Assembly (NCBI GenBank): GCA_025201365.1
Contig: JAIXMF010000115.1
Span: 1-36,584 of the forward strand
Source: Syncephalis plumigaleata
Taxonomy: Eukaryota; Zoopagomycota; Zoopagomycetes; Zoopagales; Piptocephalidaceae
Direction: 5' to 3'
DNA length: 36,584 nucleotides
Part shown: positions 4,035 through 35,834 of the stretch, in pieces
How the letters are laid out: each line of letters starts with the position of its first letter
How positions within the stretch are numbered: the first letter of the stretch is position 1
Made by a program: the position numbers and the translations under genes
The notes under the pieces: model-generated
Databases searched by the model: none
Seen by the model: the letters and a program-made list of their open reading frames with translations, nothing else
Told to the model about the DNA's origin: nothing

Positions 4035-4947
4035 ATGAAGTTCTCTGCCGCTATCGCTATTGCCGTCACCGTTGTCGCTCTCACCAGTCTGGTCGCCGTT
4101 GAAGCTAGTCCCGTCCTGGATCGTCGTGGTATGTCTGACCGTAACCCTCTCAATTGATGTACTAATCGTAGCCTATTGTTTCATTGTCCACCGATGATTA
4201 CCGATAGGTCGTAAGTTCATGTATATTAAATGGTTGTTTTGACATGCTAATCGCATCATAATGTTTATTCTTCCTATTAATTTGTTAGCTCAAAGCAGTA
4301 AGCTATTCTATTGACCATAACAAGTACTATGCTAATCATATCATAATGTTTATTCTATCTATTCATTTGTTAGCTCAAGAACGTAAGCTATTCTATTGAC
4401 CATAATAAGCACTATGCTAATTGTAATACAAACCAAAATCATATGTGCTGCCATTCAAGCACCCGTAAGTTATCATTCTGATCCTAGTGTACGACTACTA
4501 ACCGTAATCTGTCACACAATCCATACATTTGTCTATCACAGTGTGTAGGTTACCATTATGATCGTAATGAATGACGTACTAACTATGATATCGCACACGA
4601 TCCACATACGTTCCCGTATAACAGAAAGTAAGTTATCATTCTGACCATAATAAATGAGATACTAATTATGATATGTCATATAATTTGCATACATCCTTGG
4701 ATACCAGCCTGTAAGTTACCATTCTGACCGTAATGAATGGGGTACTAATTACAGTATGGCGCATGATCCATGTATGTTTTTGTATGATAGAAAGTAAGTC
4801 ATTATTCTTATCGTAATGAACGATATATTAATCACAATACAATCCACGTTAATTGAATGATGGTAAGCAGTAAGTAATAATCCACAATAATCATACCCAT
4901 ACTAATCCATTATGATTACAGGACAAGACAAGGATATCATCAAGTAG
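4035..4947 (+). CDS. Micro-exon gene encoding a small secreted peptide precursor (locus 1)
   Basis: Exon 1 (4035-4128) encodes a signal peptide (MKFSAAIAIAVTVVALTSLV, then AVEA), a short pro-segment SPVLD and dibasic RR, and ends at donor GTATGT. The following exons are tiny: 4208-4210 GTC; 4296-4297 CA (or 4289-4297); 4380-4382 AAC (or 4374-4382); 4460-4464 CACCC; 4542-4544 TGT; 4625-4627 AAA; 4708-4710 CCT; 4791-4793 AAA; 4868-4869 CA; and a terminal exon from 4922 with stop TAG at 4945-4947. Introns are 52-85 nt with GTAAG/GTAGG donors and CTAAT-like branch motifs. With the short forms, the frame is open for 48 residues and the part after RR reads GPNHPVNLNRQDKDIIK. Using the 9-nt form of the third exon shifts the final frame so that translation runs past the AATAAA at 5076, so I prefer the short form. 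The RR site suggests Kex2-type release of the peptide; function unknown. A paralogous gene lies at 34308. Exon choices need RNA data. Confidence 0.7.
4211..4867 (+). repeat. Tandemly duplicated intron-plus-micro-exon units
   Basis: Successive introns of this gene are copies of each other. Those starting at 4465, 4545, 4628, 4711 and 4794 share GTAAGTTACCATTCTGACCG-like starts, a CTAAT motif at about position 35 and CACAATCCA/GATCCA near the end, with periods of 77-83 nt. A second family is seen in the introns starting at 4298 and 4383 (nearly identical first 35 nt) and in the 3' halves of those starting at 4211 and 4298 (both contain ATCATAATGTTTATTCT and end TTTGTTAGCTCAA). The copies are diverged, so duplication is not very recent. 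Confidence 0.75.
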
Positions 4948-5328
4948 ATATTATAGGTATGCAAGTCAAGAATGGATTGGTGCAAGACCCTCATTTAGTG
5001 TCCATGCCATTCAAGTCATTATTCCTTGGTACAACAACCACAATTATATCTACAAGATCATTCAATCATTTATTGAATAAATATGTCGTATTCTGACCGT
5101 TACATCGCATCTAACGAAATCATATATCATTTTCATTAACTCCATTATACGTCACGTTATATCGTATTTGCATTTCAACATTGGACAGATTTACACTTTC
5201 AGATGGGATTGAATTGTTAAGAACGTAACTTTATTTTAATAAATCACCCAGCATATTATACACATATTCCAATTATGGAAACATGAGATGTAAATAAAAC
5301 TCGTATAAACTTGCTATTGAGTAGATTG
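4948..5328. other. Convergent intergenic region
   Basis: It holds the 3' UTRs of the micro-exon gene (+) and the secreted-protein gene (-), each with an AATAAA-type signal. No further gene is seen. Confidence 0.5.
5076..5081 (+). terminator. Polyadenylation signal of micro-exon gene 1
   Basis: AATAAA lies 129 nt after the preferred stop codon, in AT-rich sequence. The gene is convergent with the minus-strand gene that ends at 5329, which has its own signal (TTTATT on the plus strand at about 5230). Confidence 0.5.
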
Positions 5329-9735: not shown

Positions 9736-11688
9736 TCAAATTAAACCGATGGTATTCAAACATACGCGTACTGCAGTGGGTGCTTCAGAAAGAAGCATAC
9801 GAGCAGATATATATGTATCCGGTCGAACAAGGTAAACAGCATGCTGATTTAGTAATGTACAATTGTAAACACTCGCCATAGTATTGTTGTCAAAGCAATC
9901 TCCTTGCTCGATATCAATATATACTGGAGTATTGTGAAATTGTCCGTTAAGATGGGAGACAATTACTCGAAGGCTATCCGGCAGATCATCCATCTTTCGC
10001 TTGACATTCACCCCGTGAAGAATAAACGCCATAGGTATCGGGGATTTATACATGCCAAGTGACTCGGTCAAACTCTTCAGTTCCTCGATGGGATTAGTTG
10101 ATGTTGCGACAGCTGTGTCAATGGTCACTATGCGACAATCTATAAATACAAGTGCGGTGTAGGATTTCTTGTTATTCGCAAAGAATCGATTGATATGAGT
10201 GTACGTAATAGTATTCGCATCAATCACTTGGCAATTGATGGCACGAGTACCTGGCGAGCAAAGTGGATCGGAGAAATACCAGAATGGAAACCATGATGAG
10301 GATGCTCTTTTCCACGCTGGTGTATCCGGAAAGATACCGTAATGCTCGGAGGATGCATATTTAACACGTAGTTGAGCATTCTTCTCGAGTAATGGTCGTG
10401 ACCAGACATTAGGCAAATATTGCATAAATCTTAACACTCGAGTAAGTAATAGAAACTTCCATGGCCGTTTAGCAATCGACGATAAACCTCTCGAATGATT
10501 AATGACCGCGTCAGCTATTGGGATCCTCTCTGTCGCGTAGGACTTGAGCAGCTCCGGTTTGGCAAGTCCATTGTAGACCATGCCAACCTTCCATGCAAGA
10601 TTCTCCGCATCTTGCAATCCAGTGTTCATACCTTGTGCTCCCATGGGACTGTGTACATGAGCAGCATCGCCACACAGGAATACACGCTTATCGTCAGAGA
10701 TGTACTTGGATGCGCGACATTCATTGGGACTGAAATAGGAAATCGACAGGATACACATTCTCTCTACGTTGTACGGATAATAGCGACGCTTAAACGTAGC
10801 GATCACTTCTTCCTCGGTGCAATTCGGACGATCGGTATAGCAATCCATGAACAAACGATATTGCCTTTCTTTACGCGCACGAATAACACCGCCATATCCA
10901 TCGTTATCGACGATAAAACTAGCAGCAGCAGCAGCAGCAGCAGCATTAATATTAGCGTTAAATATTGCTATAGTAATCGCCACTTACCATGAAGCTGGCA
11001 ACCACTCGGCATCAAGCTCAACATCGCAAACGCATACTTTAGAGCCGAGAGACTGGGCATTGAATTCCACACCGATTGTTTTACGTACACTACTGTGTCC
11101 GCCATCACAACCAATTACGTATGACGCGTGCCTCTCCACCATTTCCTCGGAGTCAACTCGTTTCAATCGTACGTTAACGTATGCCGCATCCTCCATGACC
11201 GTATGGGAAATATACTGCCATCCACGCTTCACTTTGATCCCCAGCTCAATTAATTTCTCCTGAAGTAAGGCTTCCGTGATGACTTGTCCGCAGCCCAGCA
11301 TGAAGGAATACTTGCTGCGAACACGCTCGATATCGAGAAATGAAATAAACTTACCCTTGATGTAAGTGGATAATTTGGTAAATGGATTGCCCGCCTTGAT
11401 GAACCGATCGATAAGTCCGTAGAAATCAAGCATCTCAAGAATACGAGGATGTATGACAGATGCACGTAGCTCATTCATTCCTTCAAACCTTCGTTCTAAT
11501 GCGAGATGTATTGGTGTACATGTGTAGATTATTATCAAGTTGAATATCCAGTATAGGCGTAGTAACTAACCATATATCTCGATTGGGACACCGGCTTCCG
11601 TAAGTATTATACCGGCCATTAGGCCAACAGGACCGGCGCCAATAATGATCACTGGATGACGTACATTTACTTGCAGATTGACATCCAT
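9736..11688 (-). CDS. FAD-dependent aromatic hydroxylase (phenol 2-monooxygenase/PHBH fold)
   Basis: Minus-strand exons 11688-11571, 11495-10988 and 10918-9736 give 602 residues. Residues 14-24 form the Rossmann dinucleotide motif (IIIGAGPVGLM). The DG motif is at 168-177 (GCDGGHSSVR), and the FAD ribityl-binding GD motif with its helix is at 292-310 (GDAAHVHSPMGAQGMNTGL). The C-terminal 200 residues match the position of the thioredoxin-like dimerisation domain of phenol hydroxylases. The reaction would be NAD(P)H- and O2-dependent ring hydroxylation; the substrate is not predictable. Intron 1 uses a GTTAGT donor. Intron 2 (10987-10919) ends in a (GCT)n run directly before its TAG acceptor; reading through it would give poly-Ala, but an in-frame stop sits at the donor, so it is intronic. 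Confidence 0.85.
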
Positions 11689-15520: not shown

Positions 15521-16876
15521 CTATTTTTGAGATTCAACATCAATGGTAGTAGGTGAAGTTAGCGTGGTGGCATTCAATTCCACAGGAGAGGTCGGCTTCG
15601 ATATCTGATCATAGTTGTATTCACCCATTTGAGTGACATCAAGACCAAGGGCCTCCTCCTCCTCGTCAACACGTAGACGAAGCAATGGGATCTTATTCAT
15701 AATGAATAGAATGATAAGCGTGATGACAAATGCCCAGCCAGCACCGGCTGCACTAGCTGCCATCTGGATCGGTAGCTGAATCCAATGACCGTTGACCCAG
15801 CCACCCGGGATACTGGCATTATCAAGTGAAGCGATACTGGCATCGGCAAATATACCGGTTAGCAGATTGCCCACGAGGCCACCAACACCATGTACGCTGA
15901 ACACGTCGAGTGCATCGTCGTAGCGAAGTCGATGCTTGAGATCGCCGGCGAAATGGCAGACCACGCCCGCGATAATACCGAATACGAGTGCGGCCCATGG
16001 TTCAACGAAACCCGATGCCGGTGTGATGGCAACGAGTCCGGCCACGGCACCGCTACAAAAGTGGAAACTACTCAGTTTACGCTCGTGTCGATAAGCCAGC
16101 AGCATCCAGGTGAGTCCGGATGCAGCGGCGGCCACATTTGTCACGATGGCTGCCATACCGGCACGTCCATTAGCCGCGACAGCACTACCAGGATTGAAAC
16201 CGATCCAGCCAAACCATAGTAAAGCCGTACCCAGCATGACATTGGCGTAGTTGTGCGGCTTGAAGTTCTCCTTGCCAAAGCCTTGACGACGACCAACGAC
16301 GATGGCGTAGGCGAGTGCGGCGAATCCACTGCTCATGTGTACGGGAGTGCCACCCGCGTAATCGAGACTACCCAGGGTGCGTAGCCAACCGTTGGGTGCC
16401 CATGTCCAATAGGCAATCGGATTGTAGACGAGTGTCGACCAAATAAACAGGAATACAATGGCGGGCAGGATGCGAGAACGTTCGGCGGCGGCACCAAACG
16501 CTAATGCGGGTGTGAGTGCGGCAAACATACTCTGGTAGGTGCAGTAGACGGTCTCGGAGATGGTGGGCGCATTGGGATGTGGCGCATTACCGACGCCCAT
16601 GAGAAAGGCTTGCTTGAGATTGCCGATGAATACGCCACCATCTTTGGCGAGGGCCAACGAGTAGCCCCATACAAACCACTCGATACCGACCACGGCCAGA
16701 CTAAGCATACTAAGAAAGATGAGGGAGAGGGCGTTCTTGCTACGTGCCATACCACTGTAGAAGTAGCCGACACCTGGAATCATTATAAATACAAGGGCGG
16801 TGGAGGTGAGCACCCATGATTGATCGCCTCCGGAGAGTGAGGATACCTCTGCGCTTTGTCGTCGAATGAGATGCAT
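15521..16876 (-). CDS. Ammonium transporter, MEP/AMT family
   Basis: A single uninterrupted 451-residue frame. It carries ammonium across the plasma membrane as a trimer. It has the Amt signature region (residues 173-184, DYAGGTPVHMSS), the twin pore histidines H180 and H329 (DVFSVHGVGG), the AFGAAAERSR loop, and the fungal-type C-terminus PLLRLRVDEEEEALGLDVTQMGEY that contacts the neighbouring subunit. Eleven hydrophobic helices can be counted. It is closer to fungal MEPs (IPGGWVNGHWIQLPIQ before the last helix) than to plant AMT1. Intronless, unlike most genes here. Twelve GATA motifs lie in the 450 bp upstream, consistent with nitrogen control by GATA factors (inferred). Confidence 0.93.
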   Translation of the reverse strand: MHLIRRQSAEVSSLSGGDQSWVLTSTALVFIMIPGVGYFYSGMARSKNALSLIFLSMLSLAVVGIEWFVWGYSLALAKDGGVFIGNLKQAFLMGVGNAPHPNAPTISETVYCTYQSMFAALTPALAFGAAAERSRILPAIVFLFIWSTLVYNPIAYWTWAPNGWLRTLGSLDYAGGTPVHMSSGFAALAYAIVVGRRQGFGKENFKPHNYANVMLGTALLWFGWIGFNPGSAVAANGRAGMAAIVTNVAAAASGLTWMLLAYRHERKLSSFHFCSGAVAGLVAITPASGFVEPWAALVFGIIAGVVCHFAGDLKHRLRYDDALDVFSVHGVGGLVGNLLTGIFADASIASLDNASIPGGWVNGHWIQLPIQMAASAAGAGWAFVITLIILFIMNKIPLLRLRVDEEEEALGLDVTQMGEYNYDQISKPTSPVELNATTLTSPTTIDVESQK

Positions 16877-20808: not shown

Positions 20809-21669
20809 ATGAAGGTCTCCGTTTCTGTTTTGGCTGCTATCGCCCTTTCGGTCACCGTTGCCCAGTCGGTCAATGCTGACATCGATTATAATGTAGTTGC
20901 TTGCGAAGTTAATAAATTCCGTCAAAGCCAGGGCCGCAAGCCCGTTCGTGTCAGTACAGGTTTGAGCGGTGCCGCCAAAGCTTACAGCTCAGTGATGTCG
21001 AGGTTCATCTCTCCTGGTGCCGCGCCCATTCACAATCTATTGGGCGTTGATTTCACCACTAGATTAAACGGAATTTTGAGCGCTCTCGGTCTAAGAATGC
21101 CATACGAGAACATCTCCAATGGCGCGGCCGACGAGAAGGCGGTAGTTAAGGATTGGATCGACTCGCCAGGACATCGTAGCAACATCTTGTCCGACTCCAC
21201 CGATATGGGTATCGGTATGGTTGAGAAGGACGGCAACAAATACTGGACTCAGATCTTTGCCACCGATGGTCAAAAGCACGACTACCCAGTCTGTCCCGGT
21301 AATGCTCCTGCTCCAGAGCCAAAACCTGCCCCTGCTCCTGAACCAAAGCCTGCTCCTGCTCCTGAGACAAAGCCCGCTCCAGTCCCAGAGACGAAGCCTG
21401 CTCCTGCTCCTGCTCCTGAGCCAGCTTATACTCCAGCTCCAGTCCCAGCTCCAGAAGCCCCAGCTCCTCACACTAAGCCACGCAAGTGCCACAAGAAGCA
21501 AAAGCAATGCACCGACGGTGAAAGCAAATGCACCAATGGTGAAATCTCTCACTGCCGTCATGGTCGTTGGGAGACCGCACCATGCCCATCCAACCATTAC
21601 TGCAAGATTGACTCACCTGTCAAGGCTTGCTGCGCTGTTGTACCCGCCCCTCCTACATCCGCTTACTAG
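20809..21669 (+). CDS. Secreted CAP/SCP-domain protein with Pro-rich linker and chitin-binding-like tail
   Basis: 286 residues, single exon. Signal peptide 1-23 (MKVSVSVLAAIALSVTVAQS, then VNA). CAP (PR-1/Tpx1) domain at about 26-152: VVACEVNKFRQSQG, ENISNGAADEKAVVKDWIDS, PGHRSNIL, YWTQIF. Of the CAP metal-site residues, Glu100 and His122 are present, but the first His is Tyr59 (AAKAYSSVM). Then a (P-A-P-E-x-K)n linker at about 163-224, and a Cys-rich end (eight Cys from 227 to 275) with CTDGESKCTNGEISHCRHGRW, matching the spacing of CBM19-type chitin-binding modules. CAP proteins are secreted and bind sterols or lipids in fungi. The modular layout suggests anchoring to cell-wall or exogenous chitin (inferred). 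Confidence 0.9.
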   Translation: MKVSVSVLAAIALSVTVAQSVNADIDYNVVACEVNKFRQSQGRKPVRVSTGLSGAAKAYSSVMSRFISPGAAPIHNLLGVDFTTRLNGILSALGLRMPYENISNGAADEKAVVKDWIDSPGHRSNILSDSTDMGIGMVEKDGNKYWTQIFATDGQKHDYPVCPGNAPAPEPKPAPAPEPKPAPAPETKPAPVPETKPAPAPAPEPAYTPAPVPAPEAPAPHTKPRKCHKKQKQCTDGESKCTNGEISHCRHGRWETAPCPSNHYCKIDSPVKACCAVVPAPPTSAY

Positions 21670-28278: not shown

Positions 28279-28806
28279 ATGAAAGTTCCTACGCTTTTAT
28301 TATCCTTTACCCTATTAACCATTGGCATCGAGTCTGTCGTTGCCTTAGCGGGTAGTGCAAGTCTTAATCCGGCGAAAATGCTCTGTCTAGTCAACGAGTT
28401 TCGCGTAAAAAATGGCAGATCACCCATTGGACTGAATGGCTCGTTGAATGTCGCCGCTCAACGTCATAGCATTCTTCAAGCGAAGCATAAGGCACTTAGT
28501 CATAGATTACCCGGTGAACCGGATCTCACCGAGCGTGTTCGTGCAGTGGGCGTTCCTTATCACGGTATATCCGAAAATGCGCATCAAGGTTCCCGGACCG
28601 AAGAGGGAGCCATTCGTGGCTGGATCAACTCGCCGTTGCACCGAGCTAACATGCTATCCGATATAACGCATGGCGGTTTCGGTATGGCGATGGCCGATAA
28701 CGGAGAACCGTATTGGACGCAAGTATTCATTAAGAATACTAGTCTTCGAAAAACGATGCCAATTTGTCGTGGAATGAATAGAGGCAATTACATTAGAAAC
28801 AACTAA
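28279..28806 (+). CDS. Secreted CAP/SCP-domain protein 2
   Basis: 175 residues, single exon. Signal peptide 1-23 (MKVPTLLLSFTLLTIGIESV, then VAL). CAP domain from about 32 to 153: LCLVNEFRVKNGRSP, AAQRHSILQAKH, the loop DLTERVRAVGVPYHGISENAH, AIRGWINSPLHRANML, YWTQVF. Unlike the other CAP protein at 20809, the metal-site residues His63, Glu99 and His121 are all present, and it lacks the Pro-rich linker and chitin-binding tail. The two share the MKV start and domain but are well diverged, so they are not a recent duplicate. Probably a secreted lipid/sterol-binding protein (family knowledge). Confidence 0.88.
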   Translation: MKVPTLLLSFTLLTIGIESVVALAGSASLNPAKMLCLVNEFRVKNGRSPIGLNGSLNVAAQRHSILQAKHKALSHRLPGEPDLTERVRAVGVPYHGISENAHQGSRTEEGAIRGWINSPLHRANMLSDITHGGFGMAMADNGEPYWTQVFIKNTSLRKTMPICRGMNRGNYIRNN

Positions 28807-34307: not shown

Positions 34308-35834
34308 ATGAAATCGTTTATCGTCACCATTGTTGCTATCATCGCGACTATCGCCATTAGTGCAGAGATGATTAGTGCAAAGCCAGCATTGATATTCCGT
34401 CGTGGTATGATGAATTAATCACGATACTAATTGTAGTAATGTTTAACGTGTAAACTTTCTATATAATTAGATAGTTAGTTCATAATAATAATACTATATT
34501 TGTATACATCATTAATAACAATAACTAATTCGTAATTATTTGGCAAATAGAACGTAAGTCCTAGCAATAGATGGCAGAGAGTAGTAGCGCTAATCGAAGT
34601 GTCAATATAACACACAATGATCTCGTAAAATATATAGAAAGTAAGTTTGAAATTGAATGTAGAAATTAGTAAACTAATCGACATCTATCATCCAACCCGA
34701 TGATGTACTATCATTCGAAAAATCAGCCAGTAAGTTTGATCACACTACATGTTAATCAACTTCTAATAAACGGTGTAACGTAAAATATATACGTACCTTT
34801 CGTTAAGCAGGTCGTAAGTATAGTGTTAACAAGTGAATCGAACGATAGCTAATAGAAGCGAAACAATAATCTATGCTGCCTATGATTAATTGGCCGATAG
34901 GACGTGAGTACCAGCATTATAATTACATTGCAATGTAGTCATTAATACTGTCGTGTTTATCTTTGTTCATAGCCAGTAAGCCTACTTGAACTAGTATGAT
35001 CGATTATACTCATCGTCCTTATTGTTTTCCGTATACTACTATTCCACCATTAGATTGTAAGTGGTATGAGTTATTACAATGCAATATTTGCTAATTGTAA
35101 CTCGGAAACACGTATCACAAATAATAGTTAGTAAGCATTGGAATTTGAAATAGCAATAATAACTTGTTCGCTAATGATCTATGCATAATCAACATCTTAT
35201 CATTCCATTGAAAAGGCCGTAAGTATTAGCTTACCATTTCATATTAGGTGCTAATTATCTCTTTCTTTTTGTATACACATGACATACCACCGATAGCCGG
35301 TAAGGTTAAATACATCGAGTATACCATTTGAAATACTGATAGCAATGCACAACACCGTCTATATTCGATTATCATGATAACAGGATGTAAGTTTCTCGAT
35401 TACTACTTCCACACATCTCGCTAATTTATTAATCATTCTAATTTAGCGCGTAAGTATTGACTCTTATTTTACAGCCTGATATGCTGATCACATCACATAA
35501 TACCACTTATACAACCACTTCGTCTACCAGAAAGTAAGTAGAAAGCTGAATAGTGATGATCATCCTGCTAATCCCATTGTAATTATCTACCTGCAGTCGG
35601 TAAGATTACGTTTATTACATCAATCATCATAGTAATCATAGCGTATCATGTCATGTTTACTTGACTTTTATTAGGACATCGTAAGTAAATCTCTAAGTAT
35701 TTTTACATCGTGCATTGCATTAATTCTAATCCAATACCAGTAGCCGATGGTAACTAGTTATATCCCCTGTATATCCATTACTATACTAATTGTAACTGGT
35801 ATGTATTATTCCCATTCGCATTATAGCTAGATAA
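34308..35834 (+). CDS. Micro-exon gene encoding a small secreted peptide precursor (locus 2)
   Basis: Exon 1 (34308-34404) encodes a signal peptide (MKSFIVTIVAIIATIAISAE, then MISA), KPALIF and dibasic RR, ending at donor GTATGA. Then come 3-nt exons: 34471 ATA (weaker donor GTTAGT), 34551 AAC, 34638 AAA, 34727 CCA, 34811 GTC, 34901 GAC, 34973 CCA, 35054 ATT, 35128 TTA, 35216 GCC, 35297 CCG, 35384 GAT, 35447 CGC, 35531 AAA and 35597 TCG. Two 6-nt exons follow, 35675 GACATC and 35744 CCGATG, then the last exon from 35827 with stop TAA at 35832-35834. Introns are 60-87 nt, and all but a few have CTAAT/CTGAT motifs. Every intron is phase 1. Joined, the frame is open for 53 residues (52 without ATA); the part after RR begins DKQTSRPN and ends QIGHPDAR. 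RR suggests Kex2-type release. Exon-1 layout is shared with the gene at 4035. Function unknown; RNA evidence is needed for exact exon use. Confidence 0.72.

Follow-up and report, generated by a model that had tools for sequence, protein, structure and literature searches.

The analysed DNA, here called the window, is a 36,584-nt contig (C19) of Syncephalis plumigaleata. Near its end lies a predicted gene, the window gene (34308..35834, + strand), whose internal exons are almost all 3 nt long. The exons were assigned from the pattern AG-N3-GTAAG, from a splice-only model, or from both, as follows.

34308..34404, + strand: exon 1, MKSFIVTIVAIIATIAISAEMISAKPALIFRR plus the first base of the next codon; signal-peptide-like, dibasic RR at its end, donor GTATGA
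34471..34473, + strand: 3-nt exon ATA, donor GTTAGT (splice-only model)
34551..34553, + strand: 3-nt exon AAC, first exact AG-N3-GTAAG unit (pattern and splice-only model)
34638..34640, + strand: 3-nt exon AAA (pattern and splice-only model)
34727..34729, + strand: 3-nt exon CCA (pattern and splice-only model)
34811..34813, + strand: 3-nt exon GTC (pattern and splice-only model)
34901..34903, + strand: 3-nt exon GAC, donor GTGAGT (pattern and splice-only model)
34973..34975, + strand: 3-nt exon CCA (pattern and splice-only model)
35054..35056, + strand: 3-nt exon ATT (pattern and splice-only model)
35128..35130, + strand: 3-nt exon TTA (pattern and splice-only model)
35216..35218, + strand: 3-nt exon GCC (pattern and splice-only model)
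35297..35299, + strand: 3-nt exon CCG (pattern and splice-only model)
35384..35386, + strand: 3-nt exon GAT (pattern and splice-only model)
35447..35449, + strand: 3-nt exon CGC (pattern and splice-only model)
35531..35533, + strand: 3-nt exon AAA (pattern and splice-only model)
35597..35599, + strand: 3-nt exon TCG (pattern and splice-only model)
35675..35680, + strand: 6-nt exon GACATC (splice-only model)
35744..35749, + strand: 6-nt exon CCGATG, donor GTAACT (splice-only model)
35827..35834, + strand: start of the last exon with the stop, (G)CT AGA TAA (splice-only model)

Between exon 1 and the last exon, which bears the stop, the window gene has fifteen exons of 3 nt and two of 6 nt. Its 18 introns are all GT-AG and 60–87 nt long, and carry the branch motif CTAAY exactly in 13 cases and in the looser form YTRAY in 17. 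Every intron is in phase 1, splitting codons, and the exons start at codon position 2. The joined frame of 162 nt runs from the ATG at 34308 to the TAA at 35832-35834 and translates to MKSFIVTIVAIIATIAISAEMISAKPALIFRRDKQTSRPNFSPGSQIGHPDAR, with the array predicted to read, in order, ...RRDKQTSRPNFSPGSQIGHPDAR. A preliminary description had reported 13 exact AG-N3-GTAAG units, a GAC with a GTGAG donor, an ATA with a GTTAG donor, two 6-nt exons, regular spacing of 60–87 nt, a branch motif in most introns, and a phase-1 frame that stays open until the last exon, where it meets a stop. All were found as described, the exact units starting at positions 34549 to 35595 and the GAC unit at 34899.

The same description put chance occurrence of the 7-base pattern at about once in 16 kb of each strand. 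Against the 13 units observed, 1,000 dinucleotide shuffles of 34308-35834 contained 0.084 on average and never more than 2. The splice-only search used donor, branch and acceptor scores together with intron length, allowed exons of 1–45 nt, and took no account of reading frame; each exon and each exon base carried a small cost, and a length of 3 nt was given no special value. It returned exactly the 17 internal exons originally proposed, with acceptor and branch scores trained on strict AG-N3-GTAAG introns, that is, on the pattern under test and with the window array included. In shuffled controls, a path was obtained in 3 of 20 sequences, with at most one 3-nt exon in each. When the model was forced to stop before the last exon, in the style of the main family described below, only the final 6-nt exon was lengthened (score 308 vs 312).

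An allele of the window gene (98% identity) is present on contig C362, and the 36.6-kb window resembles an alternative copy of part of that contig. Paralogs on C13 and C322 match over exon 1 only (94–95%). A protein search with the predicted product returned no homologue, which suggests that the deposited annotation lacks the gene. The end of its exon 1 (SAKPAL..RRG) is similar to that of other members (VEAKPALARRG) of an array family found across the genome; judged from sequence, the window gene is a divergent member of this family. The best identities between its introns and those of the other genes are 0.44–0.56, and the introns are not close repeats of one another.

A second family member, and many such arrays elsewhere in the genome, had been overlooked in the preliminary description.

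~4035..4960 (end approximate), + strand: second family member, from splice models and likeness to relatives
4035-4128, + strand: its exon 1, MKFSAAIAIAVTVVALTSLVAVEASPVLDRR, signal-like, with VEASPVLDRRG

Exon 1 of this gene is followed by the exons GTC, CTCAAAGCA, CTCAAGAAC, CACCC, TGT, AAA, CCT and AAA, and then by the last intron shared by the family and a 3' exon that starts at 4922. At the last coding acceptor the gene has TGATGG, not a clear AG, in place of the TGATAG of relatives; this reads as damage or an assembly error.

Other genes in the window were as follows.

9736-11538, - strand: FAD-dependent monooxygenase, phenol-hydroxylase-like, with PF01494 in both of the ORFs over which it is split, perhaps by introns
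15521-16876, - strand: ammonium transporter, identical to a deposited S. plumigaleata protein and 88% identical to that of S. fuscata
20809-21669, + strand: secreted-looking CAP (PR-1/SCP) protein (Pfam PF00188, E 1.5e-13), with a linker rich in Pro, and a tail resembling CBM19 that falls just below the cut-off (19.8 vs 20.1 bits)
28279-28806, + strand: secreted-looking CAP (PR-1/SCP) protein (PF00188, E 1.8e-13)

To describe the family, the pattern was counted in 32.6 Mb. Overlapping triple runs of AG-N3-GTAAG numbered 1,097 + 902 = 1,999, against 10 + 0 for the reversed-pattern control, and paired units 236 + 214 against 26 + 24. A pattern joining the end of exon 1 to its donor (GAAGC...CGTCGTGGTATGT) was found at 98 sites with at most 2 mismatches, and at none in the control. 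Small contigs appear to be duplicate (allelic) copies, so these genome-wide counts may be inflated.

In twenty 10-kb stretches, the genes that were read share a plan. Exon 1 is 94 nt long (MKFSAVIAIAVAVVALTSLVAVEASPVLDRR and relatives) and is followed by a 3-nt exon and often by one or two exons of about 9 nt; next come an exon of 2 or 5 nt, the run of 3-nt exons, a TAA-containing exon, and finally the last intron and 3' exon that the genes share. A chain of 27 3-nt exons was seen in L026, in a listing of arrays with at least 4 chained units. Among 263 exons delimited by a simpler rule, 216 were of 3 nt, 20 of 2 nt, 9 of 5 nt and 8 of 9 nt, with none of 4, 7 or 8 nt; many of the 2-nt exons are probably the TAAGCA end read short. 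The 241 training introns, GT-AG by selection, were 75–84 nt long in 213 cases and contained an exact CTAAY in 190, typically about 45 nt before the acceptor. In their GT-AG ends, CTAAY branch point and minimal length, the family introns are ordinary U2-type spliceosomal introns. Arrays predicted for other members read, for example, ...APQDPNCTGVCCNVGKDGCQGWMRDWGN in L028 and ...GAEWDCDDQICCKVINGETTGYCRDRH in L030. Cysteines occur in the predicted products of L022, L028, L029 and L030. None of four family members scored above the cut-off in Pfam, the peptides being too short and variable for a verdict on descent.

If the 3-nt exons are translated, they should avoid stop codons in one frame. Among the middle exons of the 1,999 triples, TRR occurred 59 times, 57 of these being TGG, leaving 2 stops against 43.6 predicted from the base composition of a 274-exon sample (controls: 10 + 0 for the TRR count, 0 + 0 for the TGG count). 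The 2 stops belong to a single pair with the same sequence, which does not resemble the family. Another cause considered for the depletion was avoidance of cryptic donors (TAA giving GTAAGT and TGA giving GTGAGT after AG); it was rejected, TAT and TGG exons being common: TAT would create a strong cryptic donor (GTATGT), yet TAT or TAC occurs in 62 of the 1,999 middle exons, so donor avoidance fails to explain the missing stops.

The depletion is specific to one phase. Across 30 arrays, stops were found in 0 of 274 phase-0 codons (null mean 6.0, P = 0.0008); among the junction codons they numbered 25 of 244 when read in phase 1 and 5 of 244 when read in phase 2. RNY codons made up 119 of 274 in phase 0, and 34 and 51 of 244 in the other two (both P < 1e-7). 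Phase 1, at first assumed for the whole family from the window gene, was rejected on the 25 stops. The main-family arrays are accordingly read in phase 0, with one exon equal to one whole codon. The earlier proposal that introns split nearly every codon fits the window gene, but not the modelled arrays of the main family.

Gene models were built without regard to reading frame. Of 25 loci offered, 11 genes were modelled, namely those in which exon 1 and the 3' exon were both recognised; L017-L019, L021, L024, L025, L027, L031, L033, L035 and L041-L044 gave no model. Seven of the 11 were open to the stop (L020, L023, L026, L028, L029, L030 and L034) and four were broken (L022, L032, L036 and the second gene of the window). 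The frame was set by 2-nt exons in L020, L029, L030 and L034, and by 5-nt exons in L023, L026 and L028. The first version of the program gave those frames in only 3 of the 11 genes (L020, L023 and L030), with no path for L034, and the figure of 7 follows retuning, since acceptor scoring, intron limits and exon cost were changed in the second version. With the window gene (open) and L019 and L033 (broken) included, 8 of 14 genes were open to the stop.

Two further comparisons gave null results. The phases were not told apart by codon usage compared with the ORFs of the window (Spearman 0.22 for phase 0, P = 0.09), and for synonymous codon usage intron triplets correlated with those ORFs better than any phase did. 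Between the near-copies L030 and L035, 0 changes were found in 182 exon and splice-site bases and 17 in 1,843 intron sites, indels included (P = 0.39); their exon 1 differs by 1 substitution and 2 indels. The L030/L035 differences are too few, and are probably in part assembly errors. The near-copies L033 and L035 were left out of the stop and RNY counts by phase, the training introns, the codon usage, intron-pair and half-intron tests, and the exon-length spectrum.

Deposited proteins were examined for products of the arrays. With the predicted L030 product as query, eight proteins sharing exon 1 were found: four named S. plumigaleata proteins, one unnamed (NCBI), and three from JGI/ENA at weak E values of 0.02–0.2. 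P0123 (BDF22DRAFT_685769) and P0125 (BDF22DRAFT_685685) share a 975,987-base contig with the transporter P0001, and C362 holds the window's allele; we infer from this that C362 is the contig carrying both proteins. Residues 1–33 of P0125 correspond to C362:262098-262196 (97%) and residues 69–92 to C362:258189-258260 (88%). Among the matches listed (150 of 169 candidates scored), residues 50–68 were uncovered, and the longer alignments elsewhere reached residue 49 at best (60%). The HW and GW of P0125 are matched, in the same order, by the exon pairs CAT-TGG and GGC-TGG on C362. The 50-residue tail of P0123 had no genome match at E <= 10, an empty search that alone carries little weight; its YVYW and YW, at a distance of seven residues from W to Y, fit TAY/TGG places on C362 that lie 584 nt, or about seven units, from each other. 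In P0121 (BDF22DRAFT_698013), EWNEF is consistent with GAA, TGG and TTT exons on C79, where the gap between TGG and TTT leaves space for two units; the protein then continues into an intron.

These agreements are indirect support for gene products that include the 3-nt exons. The end of P0124, VIIPWINKYIYKINQAFIE, looks like a read-through of the 3' exon; about a dozen other residues also follow its RR. In several of P0121, P0122 and P0126-P0128, the protein continues into an intron, either the first or a later one (e.g. RRGMSG...IN). The annotation of the array family is unreliable.

Overall, the sequence-based case that the family is coding is strong. The family-wide stop depletion, the RNY bias, the frame-setting 2- and 5-nt exons and the fitting deposited proteins make a secreted-peptide gene of consecutive 3-nt exons, as proposed in the preliminary description, the best reading of the window gene, on firmer ground than the window alone could give.

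Two loci represent a second kind of gene. L019 (C1:1409000-1418900, - strand) was modelled with 75 internal exons, 62 or 63 of them 3 nt long. Its exon 1 lacks a signal peptide, as does that of L033; L019 has the 5' leader and 3' exon of the family. A frame-aware model of L019 predicts a charged protein, ...RLIIRRARKREAEEMKAQLWGKW...LKAEKQRLEKANQHLDLF..., and the frame-blind model breaks. Some apparent GC donors were noted in L019, and its frame-aware model includes a 27-nt exon that recurs (PSYNHIPEE / PSYNHTPEE). The L019 protein had no Pfam match at E <= 0.1. L033 is a diverged copy of L019, and in both genes WIHDYIYRI and KEKDQEIL are spelled by single-codon exons. Exons and splice-site bases differ between the copies at 4 of 190 positions, compared with 175 of 2,536 other sites (P = 0.006); for exon bases alone the differences (2 of 57) were not clearly fewer than elsewhere.

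The array introns are related to one another, with a mean identity of 0.55 within genes and 0.52 between genes (shuffled 0.38). The nearest relative of an intron lay in the same gene in 65 of 193 cases, against 19 expected. Among 56 non-independent intron pairs at least 90% alike, about 9 shared the upstream codon and about 20 the downstream codon; about four in five would be expected to do so if codons changed like introns (0.92 cubed, by arithmetic), and 3% over all pairs. Alike introns thus often flank different codons, and the usual rule is reversed, the introns being conserved and the codons variable. The variable codons reflect either fast change under selection or copying of introns without their codons, or both.

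The exchange of intron halves was also assessed. Where only the left halves were alike, 12 of 42 pairs shared the upstream codon and 10 of 42 the downstream codon; the corresponding figures were 0 of 33 and 5 of 33 where only the right halves were alike, and 2 of 12 and 5 of 12 where both were. This result is mixed and is not proof of crossover.

Since related introns lie between successive codons in one phase, crossover within introns would add, remove or swap whole residues and leave the frame intact. It is possible, though less likely than not, that the arrays act as a codon-shuffling device, giving hypervariable secreted peptides behind a fixed signal peptide, perhaps along with skipping of single-codon exons. 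If so, this would be exon shuffling shrunk to single amino acids, within or between genes.

A different account accepts the one-codon exons, and so shares its structural part with the explanation we prefer, and regards the layout as a neutral relic of introner-like copying that plays no part in diversification. Fungi are known to have introner-like elements (PMC4457414). The 56 alike pairs flank different codons as if introns had been copied without exons, and of the 13 introns that could be tested for it, none was a mosaic of two others. However, the array introns matched the rest of the window at only three short places (18–24 nt), all from one intron, which gives no sign there of a general spread, and tandem duplications of whole codon-intron units, such as AAG-GCC in L023, also occur. 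We regard a neutral relic as a serious possibility, a little short of an even chance.

Splicing might instead remove the array as one long intron, or by a recursive-splice ladder, so that the 3-nt pieces would never be kept and exon 1 would join the last exon. Skipping the array would indeed leave the last exon of the main family (RACAAGACAAGGACATCATCAAGTAG) in frame with exon 1, to give RR(E/G)QDKDIIK and a stop, and the end of P0124 resembles such a product despite the extra residues after RR. However, skipped pieces would need neither stop avoidance nor an RNY bias in one frame, and both are seen. In addition, L035 has a 1-base deletion inside the supposed coding last exon, which may be an assembly error, and the residues of P0123 and P0125 fit 3-nt exons. 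The pieces were on these grounds rejected as mere stepping-stone splice sites, and we consider the long-intron account improbable.

That the arrays are a non-coding tandem repeat (an ~82-nt minisatellite) merely mimicking splice sites is very improbable and was rejected in its pure form, because although the introns are interrelated and some units are plain tandem duplicates, the units carry a frame-specific coding signal, signal-like exon ends are conserved at 98 sites, most training introns have an exact CTAAY, and the window introns are not close repeats.

We consider it highly probable that the window gene belongs to a large Syncephalis family in which the mature-peptide part is encoded in 3-nt exons; the product would probably be cut at RR and secreted, most likely toward fungal hosts, and the layout may serve peptide diversification. 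Under this explanation, runs of 3-nt exons would be separated by ordinary-looking spliceosomal introns of ~80 nt (GTAAGT, CTAAY ~45 nt before the acceptor, YAG), and the codon array would be spliced to a conserved, signal-like exon with RR at its end. An exon of 2 or 5 nt would, in most modelled members, shift the frame from phase 1 to phase 0; the window gene would stay in phase 1. Cleavage after RR, probably by a Kex2-like protease, would release a peptide of ~15–46 residues, some with several cysteines, to be secreted by the fungus, most likely toward fungal hosts.

Different parts of this explanation rest on different evidence. The sequence itself shows the architecture, the constraint on the frame, the size of the family and the variability of codons that lie between conserved introns. 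The 3-nt pieces of the window gene are predicted to be included in its mRNA. Secretion is probable from the hydrophobic, signal-like exon 1 of the window gene and the main family, as judged by eye. The signal-like exon, the RR before the variable part, the cysteines and the variability together suggest secreted, Kex2-processed peptides; the RR cleavage, the secretion and its target, and a diversifying role of the layout would follow from such sequence features. Syncephalis is a parasite of other fungi, and a role in host contact is a natural guess from the sequence and this biology.

The preliminary description took schistosome micro-exon genes (MEGs) as the nearest analogy, and in form they still are. 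In MEGs, ~80% of the coding region lies in symmetric exons of 6–36 bp and products are varied by alternative splicing (PMC5825161). Both systems have many short symmetric exons, a multi-gene family and a parasitic owner, and the signal-like exon 1 and probably secreted variable peptides of Syncephalis resemble the signal peptide and variable secreted proteins of MEGs; the Syncephalis genes differ in belonging to a fungus, in their 2- and 5-nt frame setters, and in exons mostly of exactly 3 nt, below the MEG range (216 of the 263 exons in the length spectrum and 15 of the 17 internal exons of the window gene). There was no sign of kinship with MEGs, the peptides being too short and variable for a verdict.

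Aphid bicycle proteins carry paired cysteine-tyrosine-cysteine motifs, and the window gene's predicted protein has no cysteine and so no such motif. Bicycle genes average ~17 exons, and nearly all their internal exons start at codon position 2 (PMC9168663). The two systems share fast-evolving effector candidates, many small internal exons in one phase, and a structure that outlasts sequence. The codon-position-2 start is found in the window gene, whereas main-family arrays start at codon position 1; the lineage is different, and the available part of the paper makes no mention of single-codon exons.

Isolated ultra-short exons are known, among them a 1-nt exon in Fusarium CYP621A, a 3-bp exon in Drosophila homothorax and a microexon switch in Trichoderma Xlr2 (PMC12940212, PMC7392893, PMC11121469). 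They show that spliceosomes, also in fungi, can include exons of 1–3 nt. Those exons are single and lie in ordinary genes, whereas Syncephalis chains 27 in L026 and has 62–63 in one model (L019). Fungal introner-like elements are likewise related introns multiplied within a genome; in contrast, the related Syncephalis introns stand in tandem, three bases apart, inside one gene family. Serial 3-nt exons, or Syncephalis genes of this kind, were not reported in the available parts of the open PubMed Central literature, outside which lie most subscription papers and bioRxiv. We see the arrays as an extreme form of the micro-exon-gene kind, outside the MEG and bicycle families. We know of no gene layout as extreme as these arrays of one-codon exons.

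If this reading is true, gene fragmentation would be at its logical limit, with a separate exon for each amino acid across dozens of residues, and the question arises of how the spliceosome handles serial 3-nt exons. Current annotation would miss or garble a large peptide family in a parasite of fungi. The family would be a third, more extreme and apparently independent case beside schistosomes and aphids, and a system whose peptides may evolve through homology between introns and not between coding sequences. Through such a layout, Syncephalis may rebuild its peptides residue by residue.
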